This document shows, piece after piece, positions 12,383 through 45,610 of a DNA stretch of 64,000 nucleotides. Position 1 is the first letter of the stretch. Every line of letters begins with the position of its first letter. Source of the stretch: an uncultured Pelagibacteraceae bacterium (GTDB lineage: Bacteria; Pseudomonadota; Alphaproteobacteria; Pelagibacterales; Pelagibacteraceae); assembly GCA_902587215.1 (NCBI GenBank), contig CACIKJ010000003.1, positions 1 to 64,000 on the forward strand. Reading direction: 5' to 3'. Under the pieces are notes generated by a model. The model worked only from the letters and a program-made list of their open reading frames with translations. It had not been told where the DNA came from and searched no databases. The position numbers and the translations under genes were made by a program.

Positions 12383-12972
12383 ATTTTATCTTTTAAATAT
12401 TCTTTTATTTTTTTAATTGGTAGTCCCATAATAGTGTTTTCATCCCCTTCTATTTTTGAAAACAAACTTCTGCCCTCGCCTTCTATTTGATATACATTAT
12501 AAGAATATAAGGCTGTATCTGAAATTTTGGACAAATATTCTCTTAATTCGTCTAAACTAAATTTTTTCATTGTTAGTTTTGCTTTATCTGTATAATTCCA
12601 AATCATTGATCCGTTTTTTGCTATTGTCACGGAGCTTATAAGATAATGTTGTTTACCATTCAATTTTTCTAAGATTTTTAAAGCCTCTTCTCTATTTTTG
12701 GGTTTTGAGATAATTGTATTTTCTAGATCAATTACACTGTCTGCTCCTAAAACTATAACATCTTCGTTCAACGAACTAACTTTTGTTGCCTTTATTTCAG
12801 CAAGATTTTTACTAATTAATTCTGGAGAGGCCCCTTCATTAACTAAACTGGCTTTAATGGGTTCCTCATCAGTATTAGAGGCTATAACTTTACATTTAAT
12901 GTTGTTTTTTTCTAAAATCTCTTTTCTTACCTTGCTCTTAGAGGCTAGAATTATTTCATTTTTTGTTAGCAT
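12379..12972 (-). CDS. maf: Maf family nucleotide pyrophosphatase
   Basis: IILASKSKVRKEIL, VLGADSVIDLENTIISKP, LEKLNGKQHYLISSV. Confidence 0.95.
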   Translation of the reverse strand: MLTKNEIILASKSKVRKEILEKNNIKCKVIASNTDEEPIKASLVNEGASPELISKNLAEIKATKVSSLNEDVIVLGADSVIDLENTIISKPKNREEALKILEKLNGKQHYLISSVTIAKNGSMIWNYTDKAKLTMKKFSLDELREYLSKISDTALYSYNVYQIEGEGRSLFSKIEGDENTIMGLPIKKIKEYLKDKI

Positions 12973-13780
12973 ATATTTCGTGAATTTTTATTACAGATGC
13001 CGCTGTTTCTTCCACTGATTTTCTAGTAACATCTATAACTGGCCACTGATATTTTTTAAAAGTTTTTCTAGAATTATCGATTTCGTTTTGTATTGTTTCA
13101 AGTTTAGTATATTTAGTATGCTCTTTCTCCTTAATTGTTGATAATCGATTTTTTCTAACATCATGAAGTCTTGATGCTTCTGCGACTAATCCAATTATAC
13201 AAGAAATTTTCGGATTATTTTTTATTTTGTCTGGTATTGAGTTTTCATTAATTAAAGGAATATTGGATGTTTTGAAACCCCTGTTAGCTAAATAAATAGA
13301 TGTTGGGGTTTTGCTCGTCCTGCTTACGCCCAATAAGATAATATCTGATTTTTCGATATCGATTAAGGAATTTCCATCGTCATGATTCATAGTAAATTGT
13401 ATTGCCTCAATTCTCTTATAATATTCTTCATTTAAAGCATGTTGCCCGCTTGGGATGTTGGTGGCTTTTTGTTTTAAAAGCTTTGAAAAATTTAGAATTA
13501 AGTCACCTAAAATATTAAAGCAGGGTATTCCTTTATTATTAGCCTCTTGTGATAAATACTTTGCAAGTTTATTATCTACAATCGTATAGAGAATTACAGA
13601 ATCTTCCTTTTTTTTTGCCTCTTCTAAAATCTTGGATATTTGGTTTTCGGTTCTTGTAAAGGAATAATGGAACAAATTATGCTCGAATTTTTCAAATTGT
13701 GCTTTAAGAGCAGTAAAAATTCTATCTAAAGTATCTCCCGTTGAGTCAGAAATCAGGTAAATATTATATGTATCATTCAT
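12956..13780 (-). CDS. ppsR: Pyruvate, phosphate dikinase regulatory protein family (DUF299, kinase/pyrophosphorylase)
   Basis: YLISDSTGDTLDRI, LLGVSRTSKTPTSIYLANRGFK; adjacent to hemE/oriC. Confidence 0.9.
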   Translation of the reverse strand: MNDTYNIYLISDSTGDTLDRIFTALKAQFEKFEHNLFHYSFTRTENQISKILEEAKKKEDSVILYTIVDNKLAKYLSQEANNKGIPCFNILGDLILNFSKLLKQKATNIPSGQHALNEEYYKRIEAIQFTMNHDDGNSLIDIEKSDIILLGVSRTSKTPTSIYLANRGFKTSNIPLINENSIPDKIKNNPKISCIIGLVAEASRLHDVRKNRLSTIKEKEHTKYTKLETIQNEIDNSRKTFKKYQWPVIDVTRKSVEETAASVIKIHEIYANKK

Positions 13781-14051
13781 GTATAAAAATTATATTATTT
13801 AATAAAATTTGTCTTATTTTTAAAAATAATAAAAATGTTATTCTACAGGAATAGTTATTAACACATTTAAACAAGTGAAAAAGATATATTAATACTTAGT
13901 AAATTTGTTAATTTTAAATATTTTATCGATAAATGCTTGATTTAAGAGTGTTTTATTGTGAATAAAAATGTGGAAAAATTATGTATGAAGTTTAATTAAA
14001 CTAATTCACAGGATAATAATATAAAGAATAAAGACTTATTTAATTTTATTT
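13781..14051. other. oriC: Putative chromosomal replication origin (oriC)
   Basis: Largest gene-free AT-rich gap noted in the window, in the classic alphaproteobacterial ppsR/hemE context. DnaA-box-like 9-mers: TTATTCACA on minus strand at 13957-13965 (exact TTATNCACA), TTTTCCACA on minus at 13969-13977, TAATTCACA on plus at 14002-14010, TTATTAACA on plus at 13855-13863 (1 mismatch each for the last two). Flanking genes diverge (ppsR-maf-aroE-coaE-dnaQ on minus; hemE-hemH-hemJ-rho on plus). Confidence 0.75.
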
Positions 14052-15056
14052 ATGGGTATTCTCAAAGATTGTATTAAGAATAAGAGACCAGACTCTATCC
14101 CTATATGGTTTATGAGACAAGCAGGAAGGTATTTACCTGAATTCCGAGAGATTAGATCAAGAAACCCAGATTTTATAAAACTCTGTCTAAATCCGGAATT
14201 ATCAAAGGAGATTACTTTACAGCCTCTCAAAAGATTTGCTTTTGATGCTGCGATTATTTTTTCAGATATTCTTTTAATTCCTTTTGCACTAGGTCAAGAA
14301 GTAAAGTTTGAAAAAAATTTTGGTCCTAAATTAGGTGAATTAAATTTAGAAAAACTTAATCAAATTACAGACGAAGTATTCATTAAAAATTTAAAACCCG
14401 TCCATGATTTATTAAAAATTACTGCAAAAGATAAAATCATTAGAGGAAAAGATTTGATAGGATTTGTTGGTGCAACATGGACACTTTTGGTTTATATGTT
14501 AAATAGAAAATCTCCTAAAAAACAAAGTTTAGATATCAATATGTTTAATTATCCTGATCAAGATTTTATAATTGATAAAATTATTCAATCCCAAAAAATT
14601 CATATTAAAGGACAGGTAGAAAACGGAGCTACTATTATCCAAATATTTGATAGCTGGGCTGGTTTATTGGAGGAAGATAAATATGAAAAATACATATACG
14701 AACCAACAAAAAAAATAGTTGATTATGTAAAAACTTTAGGAGTTGAGGTAATTTGTTTCCCAAGAGGTATTAAAAAATATGCGGAATTTTGCAAAATAAT
14801 TAATCCTAGTGCGATTAACATTGATTATGAGACAGATCCAAAAAAAATAGCAGAGCAAATAAATATTCCAATTCAAGGAGGCATAGATCCCAAGAGCTTG
14901 TTGTTTGAAGAAGGAGACATGATTAAGGAAGCAAAAAAGTATTTAGATATATTTAAAAATCATCAGTATATTTTTAATTTAGGGCACGGAATATTGCCCG
15001 AAACCAGCCCAGACAATGTAAAGGCTTTGGTTAATTTTGTGAAAGATTATAAATGA
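14052..15056 (+). CDS. hemE: Uroporphyrinogen decarboxylase
   Basis: IPIWFMRQAGRYLPEFREIR, GFVGATWTLL, NLGHGILPETSPDNVKALV. Confidence 0.98.
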   Translation: MGILKDCIKNKRPDSIPIWFMRQAGRYLPEFREIRSRNPDFIKLCLNPELSKEITLQPLKRFAFDAAIIFSDILLIPFALGQEVKFEKNFGPKLGELNLEKLNQITDEVFIKNLKPVHDLLKITAKDKIIRGKDLIGFVGATWTLLVYMLNRKSPKKQSLDINMFNYPDQDFIIDKIIQSQKIHIKGQVENGATIIQIFDSWAGLLEEDKYEKYIYEPTKKIVDYVKTLGVEVICFPRGIKKYAEFCKIINPSAINIDYETDPKKIAEQINIPIQGGIDPKSLLFEEGDMIKEAKKYLDIFKNHQYIFNLGHGILPETSPDNVKALVNFVKDYK

Positions 15057-17810: not shown

Positions 17811-18647
17811 TTAATCTAGATATCCGAGTAGTTTCATCTCTTTATAAAATTTCTTTTCAATTTTATCTAATACCTTCTTTTCTAAAACTTTTTCCCAATC
17901 ATTTTTAAAGCCTTGATTAAAAAAAGGTATTTTATGATCCTTACTCTTAGAGTAAACAGATTCTACAAACCCCTCCTCACCTTCTTTTTTTTTTAAAAAA
18001 CTAAATTTAGTTGTTTCCAATGCTTTTATAAATTTTTGATGGTCTATACCCTCGTTACTTCCAATAAGATTATTTATATACCTAATTAAATTAGAAAATA
18101 TTTCTTCATTGCTTTTTTCCAAGTCCTCGTATTTGATTAGTATTGATTTTATGGTTTTTAAGTTATTCCAGGAATTATAATGATTACACCAGCTACTCAA
18201 AAAGGAGTATGTTGCCAAATTGCCATCAGAAGATTTTATACCTCTGTCTTCATCAAATAGCATTTCTGCAGCCTCAAACTGATCCATTGAAAAATGGTTC
18301 ATAATAGAAGTTACTATACTTCTAGGGTCTCTAACAATGTATACACTTCCCAAAGTTGTTTCAGCATTTGTAAATTGATTATTATTGAAGGAAATGAAAG
18401 CCGAGTGGGTTTTTAAAAACCTTGTTTTATTGGTTTTAATTAAATCTTTTTGTATCGATAGCCAGCTTTTAGAGGCATCATCTATGTTATCTATAAACCC
18501 GTTAAAAAACTGTTTATCTGGAAATTGTTCTATATTTTTTAACAGTTTAAAATCAAAATTACCGGTATTAGTAAAAAAGTAAGCACTTAAAAATGACCTA
18601 ATATAAGTATTTCCGCTTTTAGGATATGATGCTATCCAAATAATCAT
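17811..18647 (-). CDS. Sulfotransferase family protein
   Basis: PAPS-binding 5'-PSB motif IWIASYPKSGNTYIRSFLSAYF; SVYIVRDPRSIVTSIMNHF. Start moved from 18710 to 18647 (MIIWIASYPKSG), because the longer ORF overlaps the mnmE start. Confidence 0.88.
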   Translation of the reverse strand: MIIWIASYPKSGNTYIRSFLSAYFFTNTGNFDFKLLKNIEQFPDKQFFNGFIDNIDDASKSWLSIQKDLIKTNKTRFLKTHSAFISFNNNQFTNAETTLGSVYIVRDPRSIVTSIMNHFSMDQFEAAEMLFDEDRGIKSSDGNLATYSFLSSWCNHYNSWNNLKTIKSILIKYEDLEKSNEEIFSNLIRYINNLIGSNEGIDHQKFIKALETTKFSFLKKKEGEEGFVESVYSKSKDHKIPFFNQGFKNDWEKVLEKKVLDKIEKKFYKEMKLLGYLD

Positions 18648-18688
18648 AAAAAAACTATATAATATTTTAAAAAGTAAAAATATCAAAT

Positions 18689-20020
18689 ATGACAGTATAC
18701 GCCCTATCATCTGGACCTGGCATTTCTGGTATCGCTGTAATTAGAGTTTCAGGAAGCAAAACAGAGGAAATTATTTTATCCCTGACCAATGGTAGTCTAC
18801 CTAAGACAAAGGAGGCAACTTTAAAAAAAATAATTAATCCAAAAAATGGTGAATTGATAGATGAAGGATTAGTTATATTTTTTAAAAGACCAAACAGTTA
18901 TACAGGCGAGGATATGGCCGAGTTTCATGTTCACGGTAGCAAGGCAGTTGTTCAAGAAGTATTAACTGTACTTGAAGGTTTTGATGATTGTAGATTGGCA
19001 GAACCTGGTGAGTTTACTAAAATTGCATTTCAAAATAATAAAATAAATCTATTAAAAGCTGAAAGTATAGGCGATTTAATAGCAGCAGAAACTGAGCTTC
19101 AAAGGAAACAGGCCTTAAGAATAATGTCTGGGGACAGCTCTAAAAAATTTAATTTTTGGAGAGAAGAATTGATTAATATTCTGGCTGATATTGAGGCAAA
19201 GATTGATTTTCCAGAAGAAGATATCCCAGAGAATCTTTCTCAAAATATAAAAAGCAGATGCGAAAAAATTAAAAATGAGATTCAAGTCACTCTAGATGAT
19301 AATAAAACTGGAGAAATAATCAGAGAAGGGTTTAAAATTGCAATAGTGGGTCCTCCGAATGTAGGAAAGTCTAGCCTTCTTAATTATCTATCAAAAAGAG
19401 AAGCTGCTATTGTTTCAGAAAAAGCTGGAACCACCAGAGATGTTATTGAATGTCATCTAGATCTAGAGGGGATACCTGTTATCATTTCAGATACAGCAGG
19501 AATAAGAGATTCAAGCGATGAAATAGAGACAAAGGGAGTAAATTTAGCAATAAATAGAGCAGAGGAAGCAGATCTTATTATTATTCTACTAGATCCAAAA
19601 AAGCTTGATTTTAAAGGGTTTTTTAACGAAAAATTACATGATAAATCAATCCTAGCAATTAACAAATCAGATTTGCTAATTGAAAGCATAAACAATAAAG
19701 AATTTAAAATTGAACCACATATAATTTCTATAAAAGATAATAAGAATTTAGATAAATTAATAGAAGCTGTAAAATTAAAATTAAATAAGCAATTTTTAAA
19801 AACAAATAATGTTTTAATAACTAGGTCGAGACACAGATTACATTTAAAGGAATGTCATAAACATTTAAAAGTATTTTTGGAGAAAAAAAATAATCAAGAA
19901 TTTGACCTGGCGGCTGAAGATTTAAGATTATCAATTCGACACTTAGGCACAATAGTTGGGAAAGTTGATGTTGAAGAAATACTTGGGTCAATATTTGATA
20001 ATTTTTGTATTGGTAAATAA
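18689..20020 (+). CDS. mnmE: tRNA modification GTPase MnmE
   Basis: TVYALSSGPGISGIAVIRVSG, GPPNVGKSSLLNYL, C-terminal IFDNFCIGK. Confidence 0.98.
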   Translation: MTVYALSSGPGISGIAVIRVSGSKTEEIILSLTNGSLPKTKEATLKKIINPKNGELIDEGLVIFFKRPNSYTGEDMAEFHVHGSKAVVQEVLTVLEGFDDCRLAEPGEFTKIAFQNNKINLLKAESIGDLIAAETELQRKQALRIMSGDSSKKFNFWREELINILADIEAKIDFPEEDIPENLSQNIKSRCEKIKNEIQVTLDDNKTGEIIREGFKIAIVGPPNVGKSSLLNYLSKREAAIVSEKAGTTRDVIECHLDLEGIPVIISDTAGIRDSSDEIETKGVNLAINRAEEADLIIILLDPKKLDFKGFFNEKLHDKSILAINKSDLLIESINNKEFKIEPHIISIKDNKNLDKLIEAVKLKLNKQFLKTNNVLITRSRHRLHLKECHKHLKVFLEKKNNQEFDLAAEDLRLSIRHLGTIVGKVDVEEILGSIFDNFCIGK

Positions 20021-21939: not shown

Positions 21940-22571
21940 TTGATTCGAATTTTTTAAATTATTCCTATTTGGAACCTCTGAATGTTTCACGTGAAACATT
22001 TCCAGAATTAGAACAATTTCGTCAAACAATAATAGAAAAAAACAAACATATTAATTTAATAAGTAAGCACACAGAGGATATATCTAGAGAAAGACATATA
22101 ATCGATAGTGCACAAATCATTGATTTTATTGATTTAAATGCGTCTGTATGCACAGATATTGGGTCGGGTTCAGGACTTCCAGGAATAGTATTAGCAATCA
22201 TTATGAAGCATAAAAAATCAGATATGAAGTTCAGATTGTATGAAAAGAGTTTTCACAAAAGTAAATTTTTAAAAGAAGTAACAAGCAAATTTAATTTAAA
22301 CGTAGAAGTTTTCCAAAAAGACATCTTTAAAGAAAAAAATTTAAGTTCAAATATAATTGTAGCCAGAGCATTTAAACCTCTCCCAGTCATTTTAAATCTT
22401 ATTAAAAATAATTTTAAATATTTCAATGAGGTAATTTTATTTCTGGGAAAAAGTGGAAGAGAAATTATTAACCAAGCATCGTTGGAATGGGAAATTAAAT
22501 ATGAGATAAAAAAAAGTATAACTAATCAAGACTCGTTAATATTAAAAATAAAAAGCTTAGAAAAAAAATGA
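21936..22571 (+). CDS. rsmG: 16S rRNA (guanine527-N7)-methyltransferase RsmG
   Basis: [35 protein letters not shown]; mnmG-rsmG-parA order. Confidence 0.95.
21983..21998. promoter_or_regulatory. parS: parS centromere site
   Basis: Perfect 16-bp palindrome TGTTTCACGTGAAACA (extends to 20 bp AATGTTTCACGTGAAACATT, 21981-22000), inside rsmG encoding NVSRETF, just upstream of parAB. Confidence 0.96.
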
Positions 22572-23368
22572 GACAAAAGATTATATCAATTATAAATCAA
22601 AAGGGTGGAGTAGGGAAAACTACCACAGTGATTAATCTTGCTGCCGGTTTAAGCTTACATGGAAAGAAGGTTTTGGTAATTGATTTAGATCCACAAGGTA
22701 ATGCTACTACAGGATTAGGATTATCAAATTTAGAAAATACTGAAAAATCTATTTATAGTGTTCTAAATGGAACACATAAAATATCTGACGTAATTGAGAA
22801 AACTAATTTTGAAAATCTTGACCTGATAACTTCTAATGTAGATCTATCAGGTTTAGAGGTCGAAACAGCTGGTGACAATAGAAGAGCCTTTATATTGAAG
22901 GAGCAAATAATGGCTTATTTAAACGATTCTGGAGCTATATATAGCCATATATTAATAGATTGCCCACCATCTTTAAGTTTGCTTACAATTATGGCTTTAG
23001 TAGCTTCGGACTCTCTTTTAGTGCCTCTTCAAACCGAATTTTTTGCCTTAGAGGGTGTTACACAGCTCATGAAAACAATCGAAAGAATTAAAAATAATCT
23101 TAATCCAGAACTTTTTATTAGAGGAATCTTATTAACTATGTACGACAAAAGAAACAAGCTTTCAGCTCAAGTTGAGAGAGAGGCGAGGGATTATTTTAAG
23201 GATAAAGTATATCAAACTATAGTTCCTAGAAATGTAAGATTATCCGAGGCTCCCTCACATGGAATGCCAGTTTTATTTTATGATAAATTATGCCCAGGTA
23301 GTAAGTCATATTTTAGTTTTACAGACGAGTTTATAAACCAAGAAAAAATAATGGAGAGTGCTGCATGA
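22568..23368 (+). CDS. parA: Chromosome partitioning ATPase ParA
   Basis: INQKGGVGKTTTVINLAAGL, DLDPQGNATTGLG. Confidence 0.98.
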   Translation: MRQKIISIINQKGGVGKTTTVINLAAGLSLHGKKVLVIDLDPQGNATTGLGLSNLENTEKSIYSVLNGTHKISDVIEKTNFENLDLITSNVDLSGLEVETAGDNRRAFILKEQIMAYLNDSGAIYSHILIDCPPSLSLLTIMALVASDSLLVPLQTEFFALEGVTQLMKTIERIKNNLNPELFIRGILLTMYDKRNKLSAQVEREARDYFKDKVYQTIVPRNVRLSEAPSHGMPVLFYDKLCPGSKSYFSFTDEFINQEKIMESAA

Positions 23369-24207
23369 CAAATACATTAAAATTGAAGAAAGGCTTGGGT
23401 AGAGGTCTATCATCTTTAATAGGTGACAATAATTCTTCACCTAAATCAAATATGGTTTCAATAAGCTCTATTATAAGAAATAAACTTCAACCAAGAAAAA
23501 ATTTTAATAAAGAACAAATGGAAGATCTTACTAATTCAATTAAAGAAAGAGGGATAATTCAGCCAATAATAGTAAGAAGACAGTCAGACAAATATGAGAT
23601 TATAGCTGGAGAAAGAAGGTGGCAAGCTGCCCAAAATGCTGGCTTGCATGAGGTTCCAATCGTTGAAGTGCAAGCTGATGATTTAAAATCTTTAGAGTTT
23701 GCAATCGTTGAAAATGTTCAAAGAGATGATCTTAATCCAATAGAAGAGGCGAACGGATACAAAAGGTTGATAGATGAATTTAAATATGATCAGGATAAAG
23801 TTGCAAAATTTATTGGAAAGAGCAGAGCGCACATAACAAATTGTTTGAGACTTTTAGTACTGCCTAGTGAAGTTATTAGATTTGTTGAGGAACAAAAATT
23901 ATCACAAGGACATGCCAAAATACTTGTAGGTTTAGAAAATGCCAACCAAATTGCAAAAAAAATTATTGATAAAAAATTATCAGTCAGACAGGCTGAAAGT
24001 TTGGTAAGAATTTATAAATCCCCAAAAAAATTCAAGCTAATTACAAAAGATAGTAATATTAAAGCTTTAGAAAAAGGGCTTGAAGAGAAAACTGGACTCA
24101 AAGCTAAAATTCACCATAAAAAAAATAATAAAGGGTATTTATCATTTGAATATAACAATACAGATCAGCTCGATAGATTAGTAATGATTATAAAAGCTAA
24201 CTATTAG
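23365..24207 (+). CDS. parB: Chromosome partitioning protein ParB (CTPase/clamp)
   Basis: GLGRGLSSLIGD, IIAGERRWQAAQNAGLHEVPI, ENVQRDDLNPIEEA, GKSRAHITNCLRLL. Confidence 0.98.
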   Translation: MTNTLKLKKGLGRGLSSLIGDNNSSPKSNMVSISSIIRNKLQPRKNFNKEQMEDLTNSIKERGIIQPIIVRRQSDKYEIIAGERRWQAAQNAGLHEVPIVEVQADDLKSLEFAIVENVQRDDLNPIEEANGYKRLIDEFKYDQDKVAKFIGKSRAHITNCLRLLVLPSEVIRFVEEQKLSQGHAKILVGLENANQIAKKIIDKKLSVRQAESLVRIYKSPKKFKLITKDSNIKALEKGLEEKTGLKAKIHHKKNNKGYLSFEYNNTDQLDRLVMIIKANY

Positions 24208-44080: not shown

Positions 44081-45610
44081 ATGAACTTAATTAAGTCAAC
44101 AGGTACATTTAGTGTCTTCATTATAATCAGTAGAGTACTGGGTTATATTAGAGATGTTTTGATTGCAATATACTTGGGATCAGGACCAATAGCAGACGCT
44201 TTTTTTGTTGCATTTAGAATACCAAATACTTTTAGAAGACTTTTTGCCGAAGGTTCCTTTAATGCAGCCTTCGTGCCGAGCTACTCATCAGAGCTAACAA
44301 TAGGAAAGGAAAAAGCAAAAGGATTTGCTAATGATGTTTTTAATTTTCTAATGTTAGGTCTGCTAATATTAGTAATAGTTATTGAAATTTTAATGCCTGG
44401 CTTTGTATATCTGATTGCGCCAGGCTTTTATGAAGATCCAAACAAAATAGAACTAACTACTTTGTTAACTAGGATTACATTTCCGTTCTTACTTTTTATA
44501 AGTTTAGCGTCATTTTTTTCTGCAATACTTAACTCTCATAATAAGTTTGCAGTAGCTGCTGCTGCCCCAATAATTTTAAACTTAATTTTAATTTCAATTA
44601 TTTTTTTAGCAAAAAAATCAAGCGATGAACTAGTAGTTTACTTATCGTATGGTGTATCTGCTGCAGGATTATTACAACTCATCTTTGTTTATTTTTATGC
44701 TAAAAAATTTTTTACACCTGTAATTAATTTTAAACTAAAAGTTACAAAAAAGATAAAAATTTTTTTTGAAAAATTTTTGCCAGGAATTTTTTCGTCTGGA
44801 GTTACTCAAATTAATATTCTTGTGGGCACTATTATAGCATCTTTTCAAGCTAGCGCAGTATCTTACCTATATTATGCTGACAGAATTTATCAAATAAATC
44901 TTGCTATAGCTGGCATTGCAATCGGAACTGTAATTTTGCCAAACTTAAGCAGATATATTAAAACTAGTAACAAAAAAAAAATTAATTTTATTCAAAATAA
45001 ATCTTTTGAATTAAGTCTTTTTTTAAGTGTTCCTGCATCAATGGCGTTGTTGGTAGGATCCGAGCAAATAACATCAGCCTTATTTGGCTATGGTGCTTTT
45101 GATAATAATAGTGTCCAAAATTCTGCAAAAGCGCTTTTTTACTTTGCGCTAGGCCTTCCAGCATTTGCGATAATAAAAATATTTTCAACGTTTCTCTTTG
45201 CTAGAGATAATACAAAATCTCCTTTTTATTACTCTTTAATTTCTGTGTTAATTAATATTACGATTAGTATTATTTTTTTTAAACAAATCGGATTTATAAT
45301 AATACCTATAGCAACAACCATTTCATCTTGGATCAATGCAATTTTGTTATTTATAAAACTTTCAGAGAACAATTTTTTTAAATTAAGAAATATTCTAAAT
45401 TTCTCTAACTTCAAGATTTTTTTAGTATCAAGTTTCTCGATTTATATATTTTATTTGCTTATAAATACTTTTGAAAAATACCTAAGTTACGATAATGAAT
45501 TTAAATTATTTACTATAATTTTATTGGTACTTATTACTATTTTAATTTATATTTCAATATCTTTAATAACTAAAACTTTTAAATATTCTGATATTAAACT
45601 AAAGTATTAA
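44081..45610 (+). CDS. murJ: Lipid II flippase MurJ (MviN)
   Basis: [50 protein letters not shown]. Confidence 0.97.

Follow-up and report, generated by a model that had tools for sequence, protein, structure and literature searches.

Where does chromosome replication begin in SAR11 bacteria, and is the short AT-rich gap between the divergent genes ppsR and hemE the place? We asked this of a 64,000-nucleotide stretch of DNA (C3:1-64000, hereafter the window) from a draft genome that is 60% complete and divided into 44 contigs; the named relatives of its HemE protein are Pelagibacteraceae (SAR11), the closest at 69% identity. A previous sequence-only reading had put the gap forward as a putative chromosomal oriC. 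Based on its location, the clustering and conservation of its DnaA boxes, the periodicity of a DnaA-trio repeat in relatives, a GC-skew switch and a nearby parS site, we propose that this gap is very probably the SAR11 chromosomal oriC, homologous in position to Caulobacter Cori.

A conserved gap between ppsR and hemE

The gap and its boundary genes are as follows.

12956-13780, minus strand: ppsR (COG1806, DUF299), left boundary gene (NF003742, 299 bits; cut-off 225)
13781-14051, no strand: predicted oriC, the complete gene-free gap between divergent ppsR and hemE (271 bp, 15.5% GC)
14052-15056, plus strand: hemE, right boundary gene (TIGR01464, 307.4 bits; cut-off 302.95)

The gap had been described as gene-free, AT-rich and about 270 bp long, with transcription diverging from it, and we find the same: its GC content is 15.5% against 29.5% for the window, ppsR points left on the minus strand and hemE points right on the plus strand. 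Just one further site in the window, near position 45340, is equally low in GC over 271 bp. Searches of the gap for RNA elements and tRNAs gave no Rfam match and no ARAGORN match. From the gap, the gene order on the left is ppsR-maf-aroE-coaE-dnaQ, and on the right it is hemE, hemH, a small hemJ-like membrane protein, rho, mnmE, mnmG, rsmG, parA and parB (flanking genes without a profile match were named from their translations). An ORF that is sulfotransferase-like by translation alone (17811-18710, minus strand) lies between rho and mnmE and breaks this otherwise conserved origin-proximal row.

The arrangement ppsR-gap-hemE is retained in all 46 relatives with readable gaps, at lengths of 255-297 bp; these relatives span 12 genera if the window's own is counted. 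In loci from the family search, ppsR and hemE flank a gap of 261-289 bp in 29 of 29 others, whose HemE proteins are merely 55-61% identical. Further loci were picked to cover other genera, and 17 of these 20 have the same arrangement (255-297 bp). In genus g9 of the same family, hemE is far from ppsR and the gap instead sits between ppsR and rho. The g9 genomes (L159, L160, L161) carry a hemE-like protein elsewhere that is just 33-36% identical or thereabouts, possibly a replacement.

DnaA boxes and a predicted unwinding element

Within the gap we list the following sequence features.

13855-13863, plus strand: DnaA box R2, TTATTAACA (profile score 12.0 of 12.4; most relatives have TTATTAACA or a form with one mismatch here)
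13922-13933: palindrome TTTATCGATAAA, present in the sequence
13957-13965, minus strand: DnaA box R3, TTATTCACA (profile score 12.4, the maximum; position conserved)
13969-13977, minus strand: DnaA box R4, TTTTCCACA (profile score 7.7)
13989-14002: palindrome AGTTTAATTAAACT, present in the sequence
14002-14010, plus strand: DnaA box R5, TAATTCACA, adjoining the predicted unwinding element (profile score 9.7)
14013-14021, plus strand: DnaA-trio-like repeat ATA-ATA-ATA (from the R5 and trio alignment across 43 gaps)

The four box-like words and the two palindromes of the sequence-only reading are all exactly where it had placed them. An alignment of relatives, together with a site table, reveals five recurring box positions, R1 to R5. 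R4 has the same orientation as R3 and follows it by 12 bp, roughly one turn of the helix, and relatives retain the R4 position with weaker sequences at a spacing of 11-12 bp from R3. Almost all relatives carry TTATTCACA, or a sequence close to it, in the R5 column. The conserved consensus is TTATT(A/C)ACA and not TTATCCACA, and it occurs in at most five copies at fixed places; the earlier description of the boxes was right about the sites and missed their real consensus. The palindromes fared differently in relatives: each occurs in one of 47 compared gaps, the window's own, so they are probably incidental and we rejected them as functional elements.

Counting single boxes tells little in DNA this rich in AT. 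In the window, TTATNCACA is found 2 times against 3.5 expected, and TTATCCACA with one mismatch 17 times against 20 expected, so neither is enriched. We scored clusters instead with a nine-base DnaA-box profile trained on relatives, from which the test genomes, including the genome of the window, were left out. The gap scores 17.7. Its 1000 dinucleotide shuffles have a mean of 2.6 (standard deviation 2.8), and none attains the score of the gap (P = 0.001, the lowest value that this number of shuffles can give). With this held-out profile, no other 280-bp stretch in the window scores as high as the gap, the runner-up reaching 10.3. For the five complete relatives, which were likewise excluded from training and sampled at about 400 kb each (about 2 Mb in all), the homologous gap is the top cluster in every genome, with scores of 18.7-28.8 against 11.2-13.8 for the next best, or 1.4 to 2.6 times the runner-up. 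Conservation of the boxes across relatives, which had been suggested as a check on the origin, is borne out by the five recurring positions and by the held-out profile: 26 of 27 test gaps have P<0.05 against their own shuffles, where a P value combined across the gaps would not be an independent-test probability because the sequences are related.

Alongside the boxes, the alignment uncovers an element that the sequence-only reading overlooked, the DnaA-trio repeat. Across 43 gaps, R5 is followed by four variable bases and then by four (A/C)TA triplets in one frame, with T at 70-84% at positions 6, 9, 12 and 15 after R5, A at 86-93% at positions 7, 10, 13 and 16, and G almost absent. Read on the opposite strand, these repeats are 3'-(T/G)AT-5', which is the DnaA-trio motif. 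Relatives mostly have a 4-nt spacer and then 2-6 triplets; the copy in the window reads TAATTCACA-GG-ATA-ATA-ATA, with a 2-nt spacer and three ATA units. Trio runs are weak in most single sequences, and just the alignment-wide periodicity is convincing. Counting against the oriC reading, the window's copy is among the weaker ones: R1 (minus strand, adjoining ppsR), which relatives possess, has been lost, and the run of just three ATA units is weak alone (P 0.09 against shuffles).

The box and trio arrangement resembles the basal unwinding system (BUS), a box-spacer-trio rule from Bacillus subtilis that is predicted in 85% of 2070 bacterial origins (PMC8287927). As in that system, the window has a DnaA box (at most two mismatches) and, within 16 bp of it, at least three triplets that read 3'-NAN-5' on the complementary strand, and the shared units are GAT and TAT; AT-rich DNA fits this rule easily, and the periodicity seen across species is stronger evidence. 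Unlike the B. subtilis system, R5 often departs from the box consensus, the SAR11 spacer is not GC-rich and the predicted trio of the window has ATA units only. Upstream of hemE in other alphaproteobacteria, a trio-like pattern is found in 16 of 30 loci compared to 12% of shuffles, using a looser pattern chosen post hoc, and is no more than suggestive. We predict that the trio repeat of the window, together with the AT-rich DNA up to hemE, is the first site of unwinding.

From this layout we infer how initiation may proceed. DnaA would bind the boxes as double-stranded DNA, with R3 and R4 arranged head to tail at a spacing of about one turn and R5 in the opposite orientation. A DnaA oligomer starting from R5 would then be guided over the short spacer onto one strand of the trinucleotide repeat, the AT-rich stretch adjoining hemE would melt, and helicase would be loaded there for bidirectional replication. 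ParA and ParB, acting with parS 7.9 kb away, would segregate the new origins.

Could the gap instead be a mere bidirectional promoter and leader for ppsR and hemE, with box-like words that arise from AT-richness? It does separate divergent genes and must hold their promoters, and the lack of enrichment of single boxes in the window fits this explanation. However, the clustering of boxes exceeds dinucleotide shuffles of the gaps themselves, the length of the gap is almost fixed over 12 genera, and skew and parS (see below) indicate the same place. In genus g9 the ppsR gap, upstream of rho, still ends in a box-like and a trio-like sequence (ATATTAACTCTACTAAATAATACTAATA in L159, CCTAATAATACTAATA in L160, and a weaker copy in L161). 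A hemE promoter is not expected to persist once hemE is gone, so the box-and-trio end is not a hemE promoter and g9 separates origin from promoter. Given these findings, we consider the promoter explanation very improbable.

GC skew, parS and the position of dnaA

A GC-skew minimum had been named as a way to check the origin, and we ran this check in relatives, using five complete genomes of the same genus and 20 stretches of 20 kb from each. In all five, mean skew is negative on the left (ppsR) side, from -0.060 to -0.008, and positive on the right (hemE) side, from +0.040 to +0.083. The pooled step contrast has its maximum at the gap (offset 0 kb, 0.0878), with a near tie at -30 kb (0.0873). 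The skew is modest and places the switch to within about 40 kb; it therefore supports the region, and inside that region it is the box cluster that singles out the gap.

Two partition features lie on the hemE side in the window.

21983-21998, plus strand: exact parS TGTTTCACGTGAAACA inside rsmG (0 mismatches; 7.9 kb from the gap)
22568-24207, plus strand: parA-parB chromosome partition pair (ParB domain TIGR00180, 192 bits; cut-off 58)

ParA itself scores below the cut-offs of the ParA-family models that it matches. Four of the five complete relatives have a parS (0-1 mismatch) at a distance of 6.8-8.8 kb from hemE, and their sampled stretches contain no other copy; in those of the fifth, no parS was found.

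The dnaA gene is 60-63 kb from the gap, on the hemE side, in the five complete relatives. That the true origin is at dnaA, with the gap as an origin-proximal DnaA-binding or titration site, is very improbable: many bacteria do initiate beside dnaA, a SAR11 genome paper begins its alignments at DnaA (PMC12421898) and skew contrast declines slowly between the gap and dnaA, but this contrast is lower at dnaA in five of five relatives (0.076 pooled), the best box cluster in the 20-kb stretch of G026 with dnaA scores 12.5 against 23.7 at the gap, parS is 7-9 kb from hemE, and alphaproteobacterial synteny favours hemE. As a separate observation, L002 (G000:C16:423-1073) and one locus per complete relative encode another DnaA-like protein, short at about 220 aa, which matches the DnaA model at a score under the cut-off and is probably an Hda/HdaA-type regulator of DnaA.

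Comparison with hemE-type origins

Cori, the origin of Caulobacter, lies between hemE and COG1806 and contains five DnaA boxes, an IHF site and five CtrA sites, and the hemE/COG1806 boundary is also the origin in Rickettsia (PMC1914354). The SAR11 gap is at this same boundary, as the sequence-only reading had recognized, and ppsR is upstream of hemE in 29 of 30 other alphaproteobacterial hemE loci that we sampled. We find the features of a hemE-type origin in a divergent hemE/COG1806 location, a cluster of DnaA boxes in intergenic DNA that is richer in AT than the genome, and a skew switch in the five sampled relatives. The likeness to C. crescentus Cori and the Rickettsia origin includes the boundary genes, their divergence, high AT content and DnaA boxes. 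It extends on the hemE side to the neighbourhood rho-mnmE-mnmG-rsmG-parA-parB with parS, which is the wider neighbourhood of Cori as well. Together with the conserved boxes and the skew in relatives, this context supports the original proposal of a chromosomal oriC. The origin had also been expected to be very compact; SAR11 gaps (255-297 bp) are indeed all shorter than those of 29 other alphaproteobacteria (304-686 bp).

The SAR11 gap differs from Cori in its box consensus, TTATT(A/C)ACA, and in having no enrichment of CtrA sites. The motif TTAA-N7-TTAA occurs 0.28 times per gap against 0.25 in shuffles over 47 gaps, with none in the window, and we rejected CtrA control at this chance level. 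The best matches to a CtrA model score 127-148 bits against a cut-off of 350, which points to no clear CtrA orthologue, although the sole model tried was Rhodobacterales CtrA and this is not a formal test of absence. CtrA sites are few or absent in several Rickettsiales and do not strictly define the Cori type. Of the 47 gaps, 13 contain the IHF-site motif WATCARNNNNTTR (0.30 per gap, compared with 0.11 in shuffles), the window's gap with one copy among them, and IHF/HU-family proteins are present. GANTC, the CcrM methylation site, occurs in one of the 47 origin gaps (0.04 versus 0.67 per gap, both strands counted). We place little weight on this scarcity because GANTC is depleted genome-wide too (ratio 0.44-0.61, with origin gaps below even that), a depletion reported for alphaproteobacteria in a study that also describes a CcrM homologue in SAR11 (PMC3973325).

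In the literature searched we found no detailed description of a SAR11 origin, and origin databases probably list a predicted one. Beyond the sequence-only reading, the analysis adds the consensus box, the trio element, the persistence of the box-and-trio end without hemE, parS and skew. That the SAR11 gap is a compact new member of the hemE-type alphaproteobacterial origins is well supported. We give about even chances to the broader idea that SAR11 origins are streamlined, CtrA-independent versions of Cori, about 280 bp long, with a lineage-specific box consensus in which the sixth position is A (TTATTAACA) and with just one, directional, box-plus-trio unwinding module. If so, DnaA and its regulators would govern initiation, with no brake from CtrA. 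Our findings suggest that, when control by CtrA is taken away, the box-and-trio module is what forms the conserved core of origins in alphaproteobacteria, and they offer a minimal origin that is short and can be tested. In the ocean, SAR11 rank with the most abundant cells. Growth estimates based on coverage depend on a known start of replication, and a defined origin with a conserved architecture would give peak-to-trough measurements a fixed anchor.
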